The notes beneath the pieces were generated by a model, which saw nothing but the letters and a program-made list of their open reading frames with translations, ran no database searches and had not been told where the DNA came from. 55,916 nt of DNA from Magnetococcales bacterium (GTDB lineage Bacteria > Pseudomonadota > Magnetococcia > Magnetococcales > UBA8363), in the NCBI GenBank assembly GCA_002753515.1, contig PEAK01000015.1, positions 14,179 through 70,094 of the forward strand. The letters are read 5' to 3'. A program made the position numbers and the translations under genes. How positions within the stretch are numbered: position 1 is the first letter of the stretch; each line of letters begins with the position of its first letter. Shown here piece after piece: positions 22,965 to 30,381 of this stretch.

Positions 22965-23115
22965 TAAACCGCAGCTATCTTGGGATGCGCAGTTCTTGTC
23001 ATCCCCGCGAAGGCGGGGATCCAGAAAGTCAGGGAAAGGTGTGTAGACTTCCTGGATCCCCGCCTTCGCGGGGATGACGCTAGAAAACTACGTATCCCGC
23101 GCTGGTTGCGGTTTA
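22965..23115 (+). mobile_element. 150-bp MITE family, copy 1 (overlaps the norD stop)
   Basis: The ends are TAAACCGCA and TGCGGTTTA. Inside is a nested pair GTCATCCCCGCGAAGGCGGG... and its complement, forming a long hairpin. Closely related copies lie at 30232-30381 (same orientation) and 42042-42191 (inverted). TA at both ends suggests TA target-site duplication. The norD stop codon TAA (23115-23113 on the minus strand) is made by this element's terminal bases. The folded transcript could also act as a 3' barrier for the nor operon. Confidence 0.85.
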
Positions 23116-24954
23116 ACTGGTCAACCGATGGTACAGCAGCGGCAATTGACGCGGGAGCGCCGAGGCTTGTTTGATCAGGGCGAACCCACCGGGTCCAAAC
23201 ACATGTGTCGAATAGGCTCCCGCCTCTCGATCAATGGTCACGCAAAAAGGTTGAATGCCCCATTGTTTCATTTCCAATAGCGCCATGCGGGTATCTTCAA
23301 TGCCGTAGCGCCCCTCATAGTGGTCAATATCGTTTGGTTTGCCATCGGTGAGCAGCAATAGCAACCGTTTGCTGGCCGACTGACGTGACAACAAGGTACC
23401 GGCATGGCGAATGGCCGCCCCCATGCGGGTATAAAACCCGGGACGAATCGCCTGTATGCGCCCCCGGATGCGGGCATCGTAGGGATCATGGAACGATTTG
23501 ATTTCGTGAAAACGAATATGCTCCCGACGCCGTGAAGAAAAACCATAAAGGGCAAACCGGTCGCGAGAAGCCGACAGGGCTTCGGAAAACAGGAAAAGCG
23601 CATCTCGTATCACATCAATCGTGCGCAGATGATCGGTAACCCAGGTATCGGTGGAAAGGGAAAGATCGGCTAGCAGCAGACACGCCAGATCCCGATCATT
23701 GAGTCGCAAATCCCGGTAAAGACGATCATCAACAGGTACCCGCCCGGCCCGGCAAGCACTTTGGTGATCCAGATAGGCATCCAGATCGACCTCGGAGCCT
23801 CCCCGCTGCCGCTTCAGCCAATGGCTGGAAAATTTTAACGAGCCAAACTGTCCCCGCAACTGTTGTGCGGACCGGCGCAAGGATTCCGGCAATTCGCACT
23901 GTCCGGCATGACGCGCAACCATAGGGATAAGATTACAATAGTCGGGAAGCCATTCTTCCTTGCGATAATCCCATTCGGGAAGGAGGATTCCCGGCCCCAG
24001 GGGCAGGTCATCCTGCATTTCGGACGGCAGATCCAGATCAAATCGTATCCGTTTGGCCATGGGTGCTTGATCCCGAACCAGACTCAAACGATCCAAATCA
24101 TCGGCATTTCGTGCCGCCTCTTCCAAATCCTCTTCTTCGTCGCTGGAGCGGTCCACCGGGATAAAATCGGTCCAACTGAAGAGGGATTCAAAGCGATGCA
24201 GCAGCAAACCATCCTTTTTCCGGGGTGGTTCGACGTAGTGCGCCGACCGTTTTTTTTTCTCCGTGGGCATCGAGGGAGACGAATCCCCGATCGCTTCCGG
24301 GGAATCCGCCATGGGTTGTTGGGATGGCCCTGTTGACATGGGTGGGGCGGGATGCAGCCACAAGGGTACTGGCCAGGGTGACACCTTTCCGGGTGGCCAG
24401 GGAAGCGCCTCTTCCGGACGATGCAAAGCGGCCTGGATGGCCCGCTCCCGTTGCGCCTGCTCCGGGGGAAGTGTCGCCGGGTCGGGTCTTTGCACCAGGT
24501 GCGCCGCCAACAGACGGGCATAACAGGGTTGCAAACCGGGAAAAGCCTCCAACAAGCGCCAAGTATCATGGTGATTGCGCTGGAACCACTCTGCTGTCCG
24601 GGAGTTTCCCGTATTCTGGGCGGCCAGGGCGGCCAACCACAGATACAAATCGCGGTTCAAGGACGTTTGCGGAAAAATGTCCAAAACTGCGGGTAGCCGT
24701 AGCGATTGTTCATCGCACCAAGCCCAAGGGGTTTTGCTCCCGTTGCCCGCCAGGCGTTGCCACCAATCCCGAGGTACATCATGTTGGCAATCGGGAACCG
24801 CCTCCACTCGCAATCCAACATTCCCGCCCAAGGCGCGGAAAAGAATACCTACGGTCGTGGCCACCTCTTCCAAAGTGACCCTGGCGGTTGGATGGCGACG
24901 GGAGGAGGCTTGGGAGATGAATCTGTCCCAGAGTTTTCCGAAATATTCTTCCAT
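23113..24954 (-). CDS. norD: NorD, von Willebrand A domain protein for NO reductase activation
   Basis: The product is 613 residues. An N-terminal helical region (EEYFGKLWDRFI, ALGGNVGLRVE, LYLWLAALAA) leads to a charged, low-complexity linker and a C-terminal VWA domain from about residue 425. The metal-ion-dependent adhesion motif is complete: DLSLS near 430, the Thr in FYTRMG, and LTDGKPND. NorD works with the AAA+ ATPase NorQ to insert iron into, or activate, NorB in the cytosol. The start ATG 24954 lies inside the end of the preceding FeS gene (106-bp overlap). The stop falls in a MITE end, so the last few native residues may have been replaced. Confidence 0.88.
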   Translation of the reverse strand: MEEYFGKLWDRFISQASSRRHPTARVTLEEVATTVGILFRALGGNVGLRVEAVPDCQHDVPRDWWQRLAGNGSKTPWAWCDEQSLRLPAVLDIFPQTSLNRDLYLWLAALAAQNTGNSRTAEWFQRNHHDTWRLLEAFPGLQPCYARLLAAHLVQRPDPATLPPEQAQRERAIQAALHRPEEALPWPPGKVSPWPVPLWLHPAPPMSTGPSQQPMADSPEAIGDSSPSMPTEKKKRSAHYVEPPRKKDGLLLHRFESLFSWTDFIPVDRSSDEEEDLEEAARNADDLDRLSLVRDQAPMAKRIRFDLDLPSEMQDDLPLGPGILLPEWDYRKEEWLPDYCNLIPMVARHAGQCELPESLRRSAQQLRGQFGSLKFSSHWLKRQRGGSEVDLDAYLDHQSACRAGRVPVDDRLYRDLRLNDRDLACLLLADLSLSTDTWVTDHLRTIDVIRDALFLFSEALSASRDRFALYGFSSRRREHIRFHEIKSFHDPYDARIRGRIQAIRPGFYTRMGAAIRHAGTLLSRQSASKRLLLLLTDGKPNDIDHYEGRYGIEDTRMALLEMKQWGIQPFCVTIDREAGAYSTHVFGPGGFALIKQASALPRQLPLLYHRLTS

Positions 24955-25946
24955 GGTGTTCCCCTGATCGTATGCTGGCCTGCGATCGATACCGGAAGTA
25001 TGGTATAGCCACCCGATTGTCTGGCAATTGGCTCACCTCGCCGCCATTGCAGGGGAGGCCCCTCGGGGCTATTCCCCCGTTCCCGTTGGCAGGCTTGCAG
25101 GCATAGCCCACACTGGGTACAGGTGGCGATGGCATTTTTTCCGCGCCGTGGTTTCAGGCGCATGGGGCAGAGGGTGTCGCAAGATTGGGGACATCCCTGA
25201 CACAGGCCAGCTTGTTCCCGGGCGAAAAAGGGGGTCAAAGCGGCCCGATTGGCCATCCAGATCAGGCTTTGAAACAGGCCCACGGCGCACCCGAAACGAC
25301 AAAAAAGATGGCGGGCCAGGAAAAAATCGATAAACAATAGAAGTGTGCCAACACCGATGAAACGTGCTTGGTTCGGCGTTGGGCTGAACGTGGAAAGATT
25401 ATAAAAAATTTCTTCTGGCGGCAGGAGATAGGTGAGAAGGGATACCGACCAGACAAAAGCCATGATCAGCGACGAGGCCACCACCGCAATCCAGGACCAC
25501 GAGCCACCCGAGGCGGAAGCGGGTTCCCAAAGCGTTGGTTGGCCGCGTGCCCGGACCATGTGCCCATTGATCCACTCCACCACCGAGAAATGGGGACACA
25601 ACCAGCCACAATAGAGGCGTCCGAAGCGCCATACGATCACGACGACAACGCCGATCACACCCAGCACCGGCAGGATGGCATGGGTCAAGATGGACCAACC
25701 GAGGGCCAGAGGATCCCGGGGAAGACCGGAAAGACCCAGGGAGAGTTGCTGGCCAAACAGGATGAACCCTCCGGCGGTCAAATCCAGGCGAAAAATATCC
25801 AACGCCGGTGCCAGCAAAAACAGCAGGAAAAAAACACTCCGGGTCAGCAAGCGTCCCCATTGCAAACGATCCTCCCCCCAATGATCATCATTGGCCAAAA
25901 GTGGCACGGATAACCTCCACCAAGGCGTCCACGGTTTCGGGATCAT
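24849..25946 (-). CDS. NapH/CcoG-like polyferredoxin membrane protein in the nor operon
   Basis: The product is 365 residues. Membrane segments lie near 35-60, 85-110, 155-180 and 195-215. The iron-sulphur motifs are CGWLCPHF, CRFGC, CQGCPQSCDTLCP and CTQCGLCLQAC, the last two giving a pair of 4Fe-4S clusters on the cytosolic side. It probably passes electrons between quinol or ferredoxin and a redox partner during NO reductase maturation or turnover; the exact role is not established. The start ATG 25946 overlaps norQ by 59 bp, and the 35-residue tail overlaps norD by 106 bp. Such a long overlap may mean the true end is earlier, or that a sequence error lies near 24.95 kb. Confidence 0.78.
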   Translation of the reverse strand: MIPKPWTPWWRLSVPLLANDDHWGEDRLQWGRLLTRSVFFLLFLLAPALDIFRLDLTAGGFILFGQQLSLGLSGLPRDPLALGWSILTHAILPVLGVIGVVVVIVWRFGRLYCGWLCPHFSVVEWINGHMVRARGQPTLWEPASASGGSWSWIAVVASSLIMAFVWSVSLLTYLLPPEEIFYNLSTFSPTPNQARFIGVGTLLLFIDFFLARHLFCRFGCAVGLFQSLIWMANRAALTPFFAREQAGLCQGCPQSCDTLCPMRLKPRRGKNAIATCTQCGLCLQACQRERGNSPEGPPLQWRRGEPIARQSGGYTILPVSIAGQHTIRGTPWKNISENSGTDSSPKPPPVAIQPPGSLWKRWPRP

Positions 25947-26697
25947 CGCTCAAAGGTTCGGCCAGGGCGGCACGGCAGGCTTCGATGGGTGCAAAACCAC
26001 CCTGGATCAGTCGGGCGGCATAAACCAGCAGGCGCGTGCTGACAGCCTCTTCCAAATCGTGGTTTTTCAACGCCCGCAATGCGTTGCCCAGATTGACCAG
26101 ACGCCCCGCCATGACGGGTGCGACACCACTTTCCGCAAGGATGATTTTCAGCTCCAGCTCCGGTGTCGGCAGGGTAAAATTGAGAGCGATAAAACGTTGC
26201 CTGGTACTCGGCTTAAGCCCTTTCATCACATTTTGGTAACCGGGATTGTAGGACACCACCAACATGAATTCGGGGGGGGCGCACAACTCCTCTCCGGTAC
26301 GCTCGATGGGCAAAATGCGACGATGATCGGCCAGGGGATGCAACGTGACGGTAGTATCCTTGCGGGCCTCCACCACCTCATCCAGATAACAGATACCTCC
26401 CTGGCGTACCGCCCGGGTCAAGGGACCGTCATGCCAATAGGTGGCCCCGTCGCCGATGAGATGCCGTCCCACCAGATCGGCTGAGGTCAGGTCGTCGTGG
26501 CATGCCACGGTGAAGAGGGGACGCCGTAGCCGATGGGCCATGTGGGACACGAATCGGGTTTTTCCACAACCCGTTGGCCCTTTGATGAGAAGGGGCAGTT
26601 GTTTGTGGTAGGCATATTCAAACAGGGCAATTTCATTGCCAAACGGTTGATAAAAGGGAGCATCCTGATGAATGACAGTGGAAGATTCTCTATCCAT
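25888..26697 (-). CDS. norQ: NorQ, MoxR-family AAA+ ATPase
   Basis: The product is 269 residues from ATG 26697, which matches the NorQ/CbbQ length. An 88-codon in-frame extension upstream overlaps norB and looks non-coding. Walker A is GPTGCGKTRFV, Walker B is CYLDEVVEARKD, sensor 1 is VVSYNPGYQ, and the CbbQ/NirQ C-terminal region follows. It forms hexamers that remodel NorCB together with the VWA protein NorD. It lies 76 bp after norB. Confidence 0.92.
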   Translation of the reverse strand: MDRESSTVIHQDAPFYQPFGNEIALFEYAYHKQLPLLIKGPTGCGKTRFVSHMAHRLRRPLFTVACHDDLTSADLVGRHLIGDGATYWHDGPLTRAVRQGGICYLDEVVEARKDTTVTLHPLADHRRILPIERTGEELCAPPEFMLVVSYNPGYQNVMKGLKPSTRQRFIALNFTLPTPELELKIILAESGVAPVMAGRLVNLGNALRALKNHDLEEAVSTRLLVYAARLIQGGFAPIEACRAALAEPLSDDPETVDALVEVIRATFGQ

Positions 26698-26773
26698 GGC
26701 ACAATCCGTCCGAGCCAAAAGAAACCTGGGGGGGAGCCAACCGGAGAACAGGGCTCGCTCCCCCCAGGTGCCA

Positions 26774-28610
<1,837 letters not shown>

Positions 28611-28706
28611 GTTTCCTCGCCTCCTCATGCCTCTGATAAAACGGCATCGGAATGGAAATCCGTCCCTGGATCACTTTCCACTCCAATCCACCACCCGGGA
28701 TCTGAA

Positions 28707-28721
28707 GCAAAGGCGGAGCCA
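28707..28721 (-). promoter_or_regulatory. Sigma-54 (-24/-12) promoter of norCB
   Basis: On the minus strand this reads TGGCTCCGCCTTTGC: TGGC, seven bases, TTGC. This is the exact RpoN core spacing, and T follows the GC as in the consensus. Transcription would start near 28696, about 86 bases before norC. The neighbouring gene encodes a GAFTGA-containing sigma-54 activator. Confidence 0.8.
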
Positions 28722-28777
28722 TACATTTATTTAATTGATATCGATAAAAAAAACATGGCATAAGAATTTCTTTCCAT

Positions 28778-28822
28778 GTTAACTTGACTGTTAAGTTAAC
28801 TGTTCACTTATCCTTGTGAACA
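28778..28822. promoter_or_regulatory. Enhancer-like palindromes between norC and the activator
   Basis: GTTAACTT and AAGTTAAC (28778-28800, 7-base spacer) and TGTTCAC and GTGAACA (28801-28822, 8-base spacer) lie back to back. They are 80-130 bp upstream of the predicted norC start point, the usual place for activator binding. The first palindrome contains two overlapping GT-N7-AC matches, the pattern known for NorR. They are also just upstream of the activator gene, so autoregulation is possible. Confidence 0.65.
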
Positions 28823-28843
28823 ACTACCCGGACAGGTTGTGCC

Positions 28844-30208
28844 ATGGAATTTTTGCTACCTTTTCTCGACGGTTTGGAAGAAGGGGTGATTTTTCTGGAC
28901 AGTCGGCGCTACATCATGGCCATTAATCGGGCCGCGTCACACATGTTTGACAAAGAAAGTGCGGCAGTCATCGGGGAACTTTGCCCCCGTTTGTTCGAGG
29001 GCTTCCAATGTGCCCAGGCCTGCATTGCGCGGCACGATTGTGCGCTGATCCCAACGGCATCGCAAAAAACCCGCACGGTCAATCTGTCCCTGAACCGCAT
29101 GGATGGCACGCGGATCATCCTCAGCATGTGGTCGGTACTCTTGCCCGAACAAGAGGGAGCGGCCCGTTATGCCATCATCCTGCGCGACCGCACCCGGGAA
29201 GCTTTACTGGAGGAGGAAACCAGGGAACGGCTACGCTTTGGCGGCATGATTGGCCATAGTCCGGTCATGCGCACATTGTTTCAATTCATCCTACAAGCGG
29301 CCATCAGCCAAGCCACGGTGCTGATTTCCGGGGAGAGCGGGACGGGCAAGGAATTAATCGCCAAAGCTTTGCACGACAACTCCTCGCGTAACCATGGCCC
29401 GTATGTCCGGGTGCATTGTGCCTCGTTTCCCGAAACACTGCTGGAATCCGAACTGTTCGGCTATAAAAGGGGAGCCTTTACCGGGGCGCAGACCGATCGT
29501 ATCGGACGCTTTGAGGAGGCTCACGGGGGCAGCATTTTATTAGATGAGATCGGTGAGATTTCGTTATTATCCCAAGTCAAATTATTGCGGGTATTGCAGG
29601 AAAAAGAGGTAGCGAGACTGGGGGAAAACCGTCTCAGGAAGGTGGATGTCCGGGTAATCGCCGCCACCCATCGGGACTTGGCTGGTATGGTTCGGGAGGG
29701 GACATTCCGCGAAGATCTTTATTATCGGTTGAGTGTTTTGCCAATTCACGTGCCCCCCTTGCGGGAACGTCATGGGGATATTTCATTGCTGGTTCATGCG
29801 TTGCTGGGGAAAATGGCCTTGCGTGATAGGCGGCAGGATATTCGTGTTTCCGATGAGGCTATGTCATTATTGGATGCCTATCCCTGGCCGGGAAATGTTC
29901 GGGAACTTGCCAATGTTTTGGAAAATGCCCTGGTGCATATGAAGGGAGATCTATTGTTGCCGCAACATTTTCAAACGTTAGCTTTGAAGATTAATGTACT
30001 TCCATTCCGAGATCAAGCGAGACACCATGCTGCGGCAATTGTAACAACGGATACGGTACGTTATTATCGTGCGCCTGATGATGCTTTGGAAAAAGAACAG
30101 ATCGCCGCAGCACTGCGGGAGGCGCGTGGAAACAAAACCATCGCCGCCAAAAAGCTGGGCATGTCGCGTACCACGTTGTGGAAACGGATGAAAGACTACA
30201 ACCTTTAG
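28844..30208 (+). CDS. PAS sigma-54-dependent activator of the nor operon (NorR-like role)
   Basis: The product is 454 residues. A PAS domain (about 1-125) carries four cysteines at 47, 56, 60 and 66. The AAA+ domain (about 135-370) has Walker A GESGTGKE, the sigma-54 contact loop GAFTGAQ, Walker B ILLDEIGE and an R-finger region. A Fis-type helix-turn-helix closes the protein (NKTIAAKKLGMSRTTLWKRM). It differs from classical NorR, which senses NO with an N-terminal GAF domain; here the cysteines may hold an Fe-S cluster or another redox sensor (inference). It is divergent from norC, whose upstream region has a matching promoter and palindromes. Confidence 0.9.
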   Translation: MEFLLPFLDGLEEGVIFLDSRRYIMAINRAASHMFDKESAAVIGELCPRLFEGFQCAQACIARHDCALIPTASQKTRTVNLSLNRMDGTRIILSMWSVLLPEQEGAARYAIILRDRTREALLEEETRERLRFGGMIGHSPVMRTLFQFILQAAISQATVLISGESGTGKELIAKALHDNSSRNHGPYVRVHCASFPETLLESELFGYKRGAFTGAQTDRIGRFEEAHGGSILLDEIGEISLLSQVKLLRVLQEKEVARLGENRLRKVDVRVIAATHRDLAGMVREGTFREDLYYRLSVLPIHVPPLRERHGDISLLVHALLGKMALRDRRQDIRVSDEAMSLLDAYPWPGNVRELANVLENALVHMKGDLLLPQHFQTLALKINVLPFRDQARHHAAAIVTTDTVRYYRAPDDALEKEQIAAALREARGNKTIAAKKLGMSRTTLWKRMKDYNL

Positions 30209-30231: not shown

Positions 30232-30381
30232 TAAACCGCAGCTATCTTGGAATGTGTAGTTATCGTCATCCCCGCGAAAGCGGGGATCCAGAGGACTTTT
30301 CTACCTTCCCTGACTTTCTGGATCCCCGCTTTCGCGGGGATGACACCGGAAAACTACGTCTCCCGTGTTGGTTGCGGTTTA
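30232..30381 (+). mobile_element. 150-bp MITE family, copy 2
   Basis: It has the same TAAACCGCA...TGCGGTTTA ends as copies 1 and 3. The internal inverted pair built on GTCATCCCCGCGAAAGCGGG is perfect over nearly 28 bp. It begins 24 bp after the activator stop. Its hairpin could end the activator transcript, but no T-run follows, so terminator function is not shown. Confidence 0.88.

Follow-up and report, generated by a model that had tools for sequence, protein, structure and literature searches.

A candidate sigma-54 switch with a four-cysteine PAS sensor beside the NO reductase operon of a Magnetococcales bacterium

NorR, encoded with norVW in Escherichia coli and with norAB in Ralstonia, is a sigma-54 activator that lies beside NO reductase genes (PMC1274295, PMC4601167). 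It uses three tandem sites of the GT-N7-AC type upstream of a −24/−12 promoter, together with an IHF bend (PMC1274295, PMC4601167). The three enhancer sites scaffold the hexamer, and the sensor domain blocks the AAA+ ring until NO binds (PMC2941729, PMC4601167, PMC1274295). Iron–sulfur clusters serve other sensors. In NreB, four PAS cysteines carry an O2-labile [4Fe-4S] cluster and O2 is the known signal; AirS is a [2Fe-2S] sensor kinase with the pattern C-x7-C-x-C-x17-C, the cluster of which is nitrosylated (PMC4601167).

The locus described here lies in a 55,916-nucleotide stretch of DNA (the window) that is part of the 4.3 Mb draft genome of a Magnetococcales bacterium. Its nor operon runs leftwards on the minus strand in the order norC, norB, norQ, a gene for a NapH-like 4Fe-4S membrane protein, and norD (norCBQ-X-D). 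The gene for a sigma-54-dependent activator is divergent from norC on the plus strand (28844–30208), and the space between them contains, from norC to the activator, a sigma-54 core, an IHF-like site, and palindromic boxes. The same genome encodes rpoN. The features are as follows.

23113–24954, minus strand: norD, VWA-domain protein, named from its cluster position and VWA domain
24849–25946, minus strand: gene flanked by norQ and norD; NapH/CcoG-like 4Fe-4S membrane protein
25888–26700, minus strand: norQ, AAA+ protein with a CbbQ/NirQ/NorQ C-terminus; start approximate
26774–28156, minus strand: norB, catalytic subunit of cNOR; the open reading frame opens at 28180
28170–28610, minus strand: norC, at the head of the predicted sigma-54 operon; membrane cytochrome c subunit of cNOR
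28707–28721, minus strand: predicted sigma-54 promoter core TGGCTCCGCCTTTGC, TGGC-N7-TTGC, facing norC; same place in orthologues
28728–28740, minus strand: IHF-like site TATCAATTAAATA with a single mismatch, next to the promoter core on its upstream side
28778–28788: operator box 1, GTTAACTTGAC, GT-N7-AC
28790–28800: operator box 2, GTTAAGTTAAC, GT-N7-AC, one base (T) from box 1
28802–28821: operator box 3, GTTCAC-N8-GTGAAC, with a longer spacing than boxes 1 and 2
28844–30208, plus strand: sigma-54-dependent activator, 454 aa; PAS ~1–125, AAA+ with GAFTGA 135–378, Fis-type HTH 413–454

The norC start is most likely the ATG at 28610 rather than 28628; the N-terminus MKEKF is conserved as MRERF in the relative G006. 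The NapH/CcoG-like gene between norQ and norD is retained in the nor operons of relatives; its product may have a role in NO reductase assembly or in electron supply. Just 3′ of the activator gene, a large inverted repeat at 30262–30346, composed of GTCATCCCCGCGAAAGCGGGGATCCAGA and its complement, resembles a dispersed repeat element or a terminator. No Rfam match was found at the locus, and a promoter scan of 28500–28900 returned no sigma-70-like promoter.

The arrangement has much in common with NorR: an activator beside an NO reductase, a three-box array, a sigma-54 promoter, and an IHF-like site. Set against the three tandem GT-N7-AC operators of NorR, the locus gives a mixed picture: three boxes, the promoter, and norC are present, but the spacer of box 3 is N8 and not N7. 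However, there are several salient differences. The NorR sensor is a GAF domain with mononuclear iron, whereas that of the present activator is a PAS domain with four invariant cysteines. The boxes of this family are contiguous with a period of ~12–14 bp, and its partners include nirS and sNOR-type operons. The activator was rejected as a NorR on the basis of two results, the lack of a GAF domain in Pfam and a score of 338 bits against the NCBIfam NorR cut-off of 476 bits, drawn from the AAA+/HTH part only. Among 48 genomes from the order, none encodes a protein that exceeds this cut-off, and the E. coli control was positive. G006 encodes a GAF-type sigma-54 activator ~1.2 kb downstream of its PAS activator (L029:14207–15769), which at 285 of 476 bits was also rejected as a NorR.

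A prior sequence-only reading of the locus had noted two GT-N7-AC palindromes 80–130 bp upstream, beside the activator. Their position was correct, but they belong to one tandem three-box array that reads GTTAACTTGAC, T, GTTAAGTTAAC, T, GTTCAC-N8-GTGAAC; the GT-N7-AC label fits boxes 1 and 2 and fails for the third. The second palindrome, TGTTCACTTATCCTTGTGAACA at 28801–28822, contains box 3, and its half-sites are similar to those of boxes 1 and 2. The array lies 57–101 bp upstream of the core and ~83–127 bp upstream of the predicted transcription start. A genome-wide palindrome scan, which that reading had proposed as a check, shows the array to be unique in the genome. Boxes 1 and 2 together have no other genomic occurrence within 3 mismatches, and the loose syntax GT-N7-AC-W-GT-N7-AC-W-GT occurs at three genomic places, of which the norC array alone is palindromic by eye.

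The array extends well beyond this genome. A degenerate form of the pattern matched in 7 of 61 genomes, in each case at the regulator locus and never reversed, and palindromic tandem boxes occur at 26 of 53 loci (0.14 expected). The counterpart of box 3 in other genomes is GT-N7-AC or GT-N9-AC. The Magnetococcales genome G028 harbors a run of four GT-N7-AC boxes, contiguous and repeating every 12 bp, and family f7 has N9-N7-N9 boxes (GTTCACACTGAAC-A-GTTCAGTGAAC-A-GTTCAGTGTGAAC). The half-sites GTTCA/TGAAC recur in many beta- and gammaproteobacterial members, where the contiguous boxes measure 12–13 bp (e.g., GTTCACGTTGAAC-GTTCAGACTGAAC). An out-of-sample case is provided by G019, in which the regulator is on contig C33 and norCBQD on C13. 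A perfect core, TGGCACTACTGTTGC, belongs to this operon and is preceded upstream by the array GTCCACACTGAAC-A-GTAACCTGGAC-A-GTCAAGTCAAC (GT-N9-AC/GT-N7-AC/GT-N7-AC), a site that was not used in defining the array pattern; this promoter and norC are separated by the gene of a small membrane protein. The disrupted qNOR gene of G034, examined as a trans target, has no array.

The perfect TGGC-N7-TTGC core that had been described as facing norC is present at 28721–28707 on the minus strand, with a predicted transcription start at ~28695. Five such cores are found in the window, where 3.5 are expected by chance; therefore, the norC core is not significant by itself, and its significance derives from its conservation across loci. 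The mean divergent-strand sigma-54 score over 53 loci is 12.77, compared with 10.24 for dinucleotide shuffles (sd of the mean 0.12) and 10.23 for the opposite strand; these loci are mutually related and hence not independent observations, though the family spans three classes. Most family loci retain the divergent promoter, and a recognizable core is missing in ~10 of the 53 loci scored. The IHF-like site, with at most 1 mismatch, is present at 33 of 53 loci, where single-base shuffles predict ~6, and its spacing is often the same. A comparison of the norC upstream region among relatives, also suggested by the earlier reading, shows that array and promoter recur across orthologues: in the Magnetococcales, the array and a sigma-54-like core are found in the same order with similar spacing, and some of these cores deviate from the consensus at one core base. 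It is thus highly probable that nor is controlled through the sigma-54 promoter by the adjacent activator.

A search with the PAS domain returned 11 orthologues in the same order (44–91% identity), and a collection scan contributed beta- and gammaproteobacterial members (Aromatoleum, Thiobacillus, Sulfuritalea, Thiohalobacter, Noviherbaspirillum, and others) for a total of 52 loci. Maximum-likelihood analysis places the Magnetococcales rows in a single supported clade (96/100), the sub-clades of which track the partner enzyme (i.e., cNOR, qNOR, or nirS). Partner operons vary, and most handle NO, encoding cNOR, qNOR, an sNOR-type oxidase, or nirS. The cNOR partner is found in four Magnetococcales genomes (that of the window, G001, G003, and G006) and at the loci L082 and L109. 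The qNOR partner occurs in G037, with a fragment in G044; within the order, only three genomes have a qNOR above the family cut-off, and all three bear the regulator. Partners of the nirS/nirF/nirDLGH-like/nirJ-like kind are present in G028, G015, and G034. Cytochrome cd1 was rejected as a predictor of the regulator, as its genes are common among members of the order that lack this activator. No cNOR or qNOR was detectable in the regulator-bearing Magnetococcales genomes G015, G023, G028, and G039; in G023 and G039, the promoter faces a gene for a small secreted protein.

The most frequent neighbor in the collection scan (25 of 52 loci) is a COX2, COX1, and SCO operon of the sNOR type, often located behind a small secreted protein and sometimes accompanied by a formate/nitrite transporter. 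In gene order, it matches the norSY-senC cluster, which goes by the name sNOR in ammonia oxidizers. The partner COX1 carries FFGHxFxN, with an asparagine four residues after the helix-VI histidine, at the position where O2-reducing oxidases have a cross-linked tyrosine. The sNOR may be a high-affinity oxidase, and it is disputed whether its cellular substrate is NO or O2 (PMC6967387). NirK-like genes are found ~6 kb away at four further loci, and at 14 of the 52 collection loci none of the NO-related genes searched for is present. Several loci encode small proteins first behind the promoter. At L031, L036, and L037, these are single-span membrane proteins of 42–43 aa, beginning MNQSDNSTFSS, MNRTTSNFLS, and MTNQTNHFFS, respectively, and L036 has a second gene of this type next to the first. 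At L077, L078, L079, L080, L084, L120, and L121, they are small secreted proteins with D-P-L...F motifs; the one copy examined (L120) has no Pfam match.

The activator is a sigma-54 enhancer-binding protein (Pfam Sigma54_activat, E 4e-69, and HTH_8), and the GAFTGA loop that had been noticed beside the palindromes is indeed in its AAA+ domain, encoded within 28844–30208. Loop variants GAFSG and GSFSG occur in many beta members. The proposal that a PAS domain replaces the GAF domain of NorR also holds: the N-terminus is PAS-like in Pfam (PAS_9, just below the curated cut-off), no GAF domain is detected, and the AlphaFold model is a PAS fold. The cysteines C47, C56, C60, and C66 are where they had been placed. 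Their pattern, C-x8-C-x3-C-x5-C, is found in 12 of 12 Magnetococcales members, and every one of the 52 collection-scan loci keeps the four cysteines, Beta- and Gammaproteobacteria included. Among 42 aligned diverse sequences, 16 columns of the sensor domain are invariant, the four cysteines among them, so the idea of a cysteine-based sensor survives the refuting condition that the earlier reading had set, a lack of cysteine conservation. There is no invariant histidine in this alignment, which speaks against a histidine-bound heme, a candidate that was rejected. G019 encodes a second sigma-54 activator ~1.6 kb from norC (L061:6394–7773) with a related cysteine motif, HCYEVSHGFDRPC...ECCPL, which suggests a wider group of cysteine-PAS activators.

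In the AlphaFold model of the PAS domain (pLDDT 86), the four cysteines lie in a helical segment, 47–66; such a model holds no metal. Foldseek returns general PAS/LOV folds only, near the PAS domains of DosP, LOV, and NifL, matches that do not decide the cofactor. At the sequence level, the PAS profile best matches 9wex in the PDB, a sensor-kinase PAS (E 2.6e-5) with a partly similar cysteine pattern. The full-length model is moderate (pTM 0.54), and its domain packing was left unused. The PAS domain with four conserved cysteines is shared with NreB, and a four-cysteine sensor region with AirS. However, NreB is a histidine kinase with a different cysteine spacing, and AirS likewise has a kinase output and the pattern C-x7-C-x-C-x17-C, in contrast to the AAA+ and HTH output and the C-x8-C-x3-C-x5-C of this family. 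The two precedents make an Fe–S cluster plausible, though cysteine spacings and outputs differ, and the chances that the PAS cysteines carry one are about even.

Relatives that have norCB without the regulator offer a comparison. TTGA-N6-TCAA boxes of the FNR/NNR type precede norC in five of the eight such promoters examined (L054, L055, L056, L058, and L060), and a sigma-54 core in none of the eight. Conversely, the 12 regulator loci, this norC promoter included, all lack the TTGA-N6-TCAA box. For the same operon, one control system appears to have been swapped for another, with an FNR/NNR-type box in some genomes and the regulator in others. Control by NnrR, DNR, or FNR, members of the CRP/FNR family that act through TTGA-N6-TCAA boxes, concerns the same kind of operon and apparently operates in sister genomes. 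It could be argued that the operator motif and promoter are chance matches and that nor is under an FNR-type factor here as well, given the 3.5 cores expected per window and the boxes of the sister genomes. This is very improbable, as conservation of the whole syntax reaches distant genomes at a level far exceeding that of shuffles, and this norC lacks such a box.

Other explanations accept the array and the sigma-54 promoter and differ in the signal. The PAS cysteines could sense oxygen or redox state, turning the operons on when oxygen falls, as modeled by the O2-labile [4Fe-4S] cluster on the four PAS cysteines of NreB and the redox disulfides of the ArcB PAS cysteines (PMC4601167). The partly similar pattern in 9wex is in line with this, and if the sNOR-type partners are oxidases, O2 or redox is an alternative signal. 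Nevertheless, what the partners constantly share is the reduction or production of NO (cNOR, qNOR, and nirS), not oxidase function in general, and the asparagine of FFGHxFxN replaces the tyrosine of O2-reducing enzymes; this explanation is accordingly unlikely. Less likely still is a zinc-binding or structural role for the cysteines, or a reaction of theirs with sulfide or persulfide, with another ligand of the PAS pocket as the signal. Several of the relatives are from sulfur-oxidizing genera, which would suit a sulfide response. Moreover, the WalK PAS domain binds zinc, and Bacillus licheniformis NreB has been reported to be sulfide-responsive (PMC6624279, PMC9918477). On the other hand, the partner genes belong to nitrogen-oxide metabolism, and no sulfur gene was noted among the conserved neighbors.

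The best overall explanation, held with somewhat better than even confidence, is a sigma-54 switch of norCBQ-X-D that is NorR-like without being NorR and has a Cys4-PAS sensor. The parts, their conservation, their shared syntax, and the partner genes are observed; the following mechanism is built on them. The activator would be the dedicated enhancer-binding protein of the divergent operon, its Fis-type HTH binding the three-box array at 28778–28821 and thereby promoting hexamer assembly. Upon signaling by the PAS domain, the AAA+ ring would act on RNA polymerase–sigma54 at 28707–28721, presumably assisted by a bend at the IHF-like site between array and promoter, and norCBQ-X-D would be switched on. 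The four invariant cysteines are proposed to read NO or its immediate products; the signal is probably NO or a close nitrogen oxide. Most simply, they would be ligands to an Fe–S cluster that NO nitrosylates, and PAS signaling would release the AAA+ ring by analogy with NorR. Because the array stands directly before the activator's own gene, the activator probably limits its own expression.

A broader and more tentative proposal, somewhat less probable than its opposite, is that this family constitutes a second, independently built NO switch, in which Fe–S-PAS sigma-54 activators converged on the NorR operator layout and, gated by cluster nitrosylation, guard cNOR, qNOR, sNOR-type, and nirS operons in Magnetococcales, Beta-, and Gammaproteobacteria. 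No description of a cysteine-PAS sigma-54 regulator of NO enzymes was found in the searchable papers, which exclude most subscription journals and are hence weak evidence of novelty. If correct, the proposal would add a regulator family that is missing from the usual list (NorR, NsrR, NnrR/DNR, and HcpR). It would offer a direct test of a metal-bearing PAS domain gating an AAA+ ring, and the combination of three boxes, bend, and sigma-54 core would be a ready motif for target finding. The family would also control the NO reductases of many environmental denitrifiers, enzymes that help set the escape of NO and N2O.
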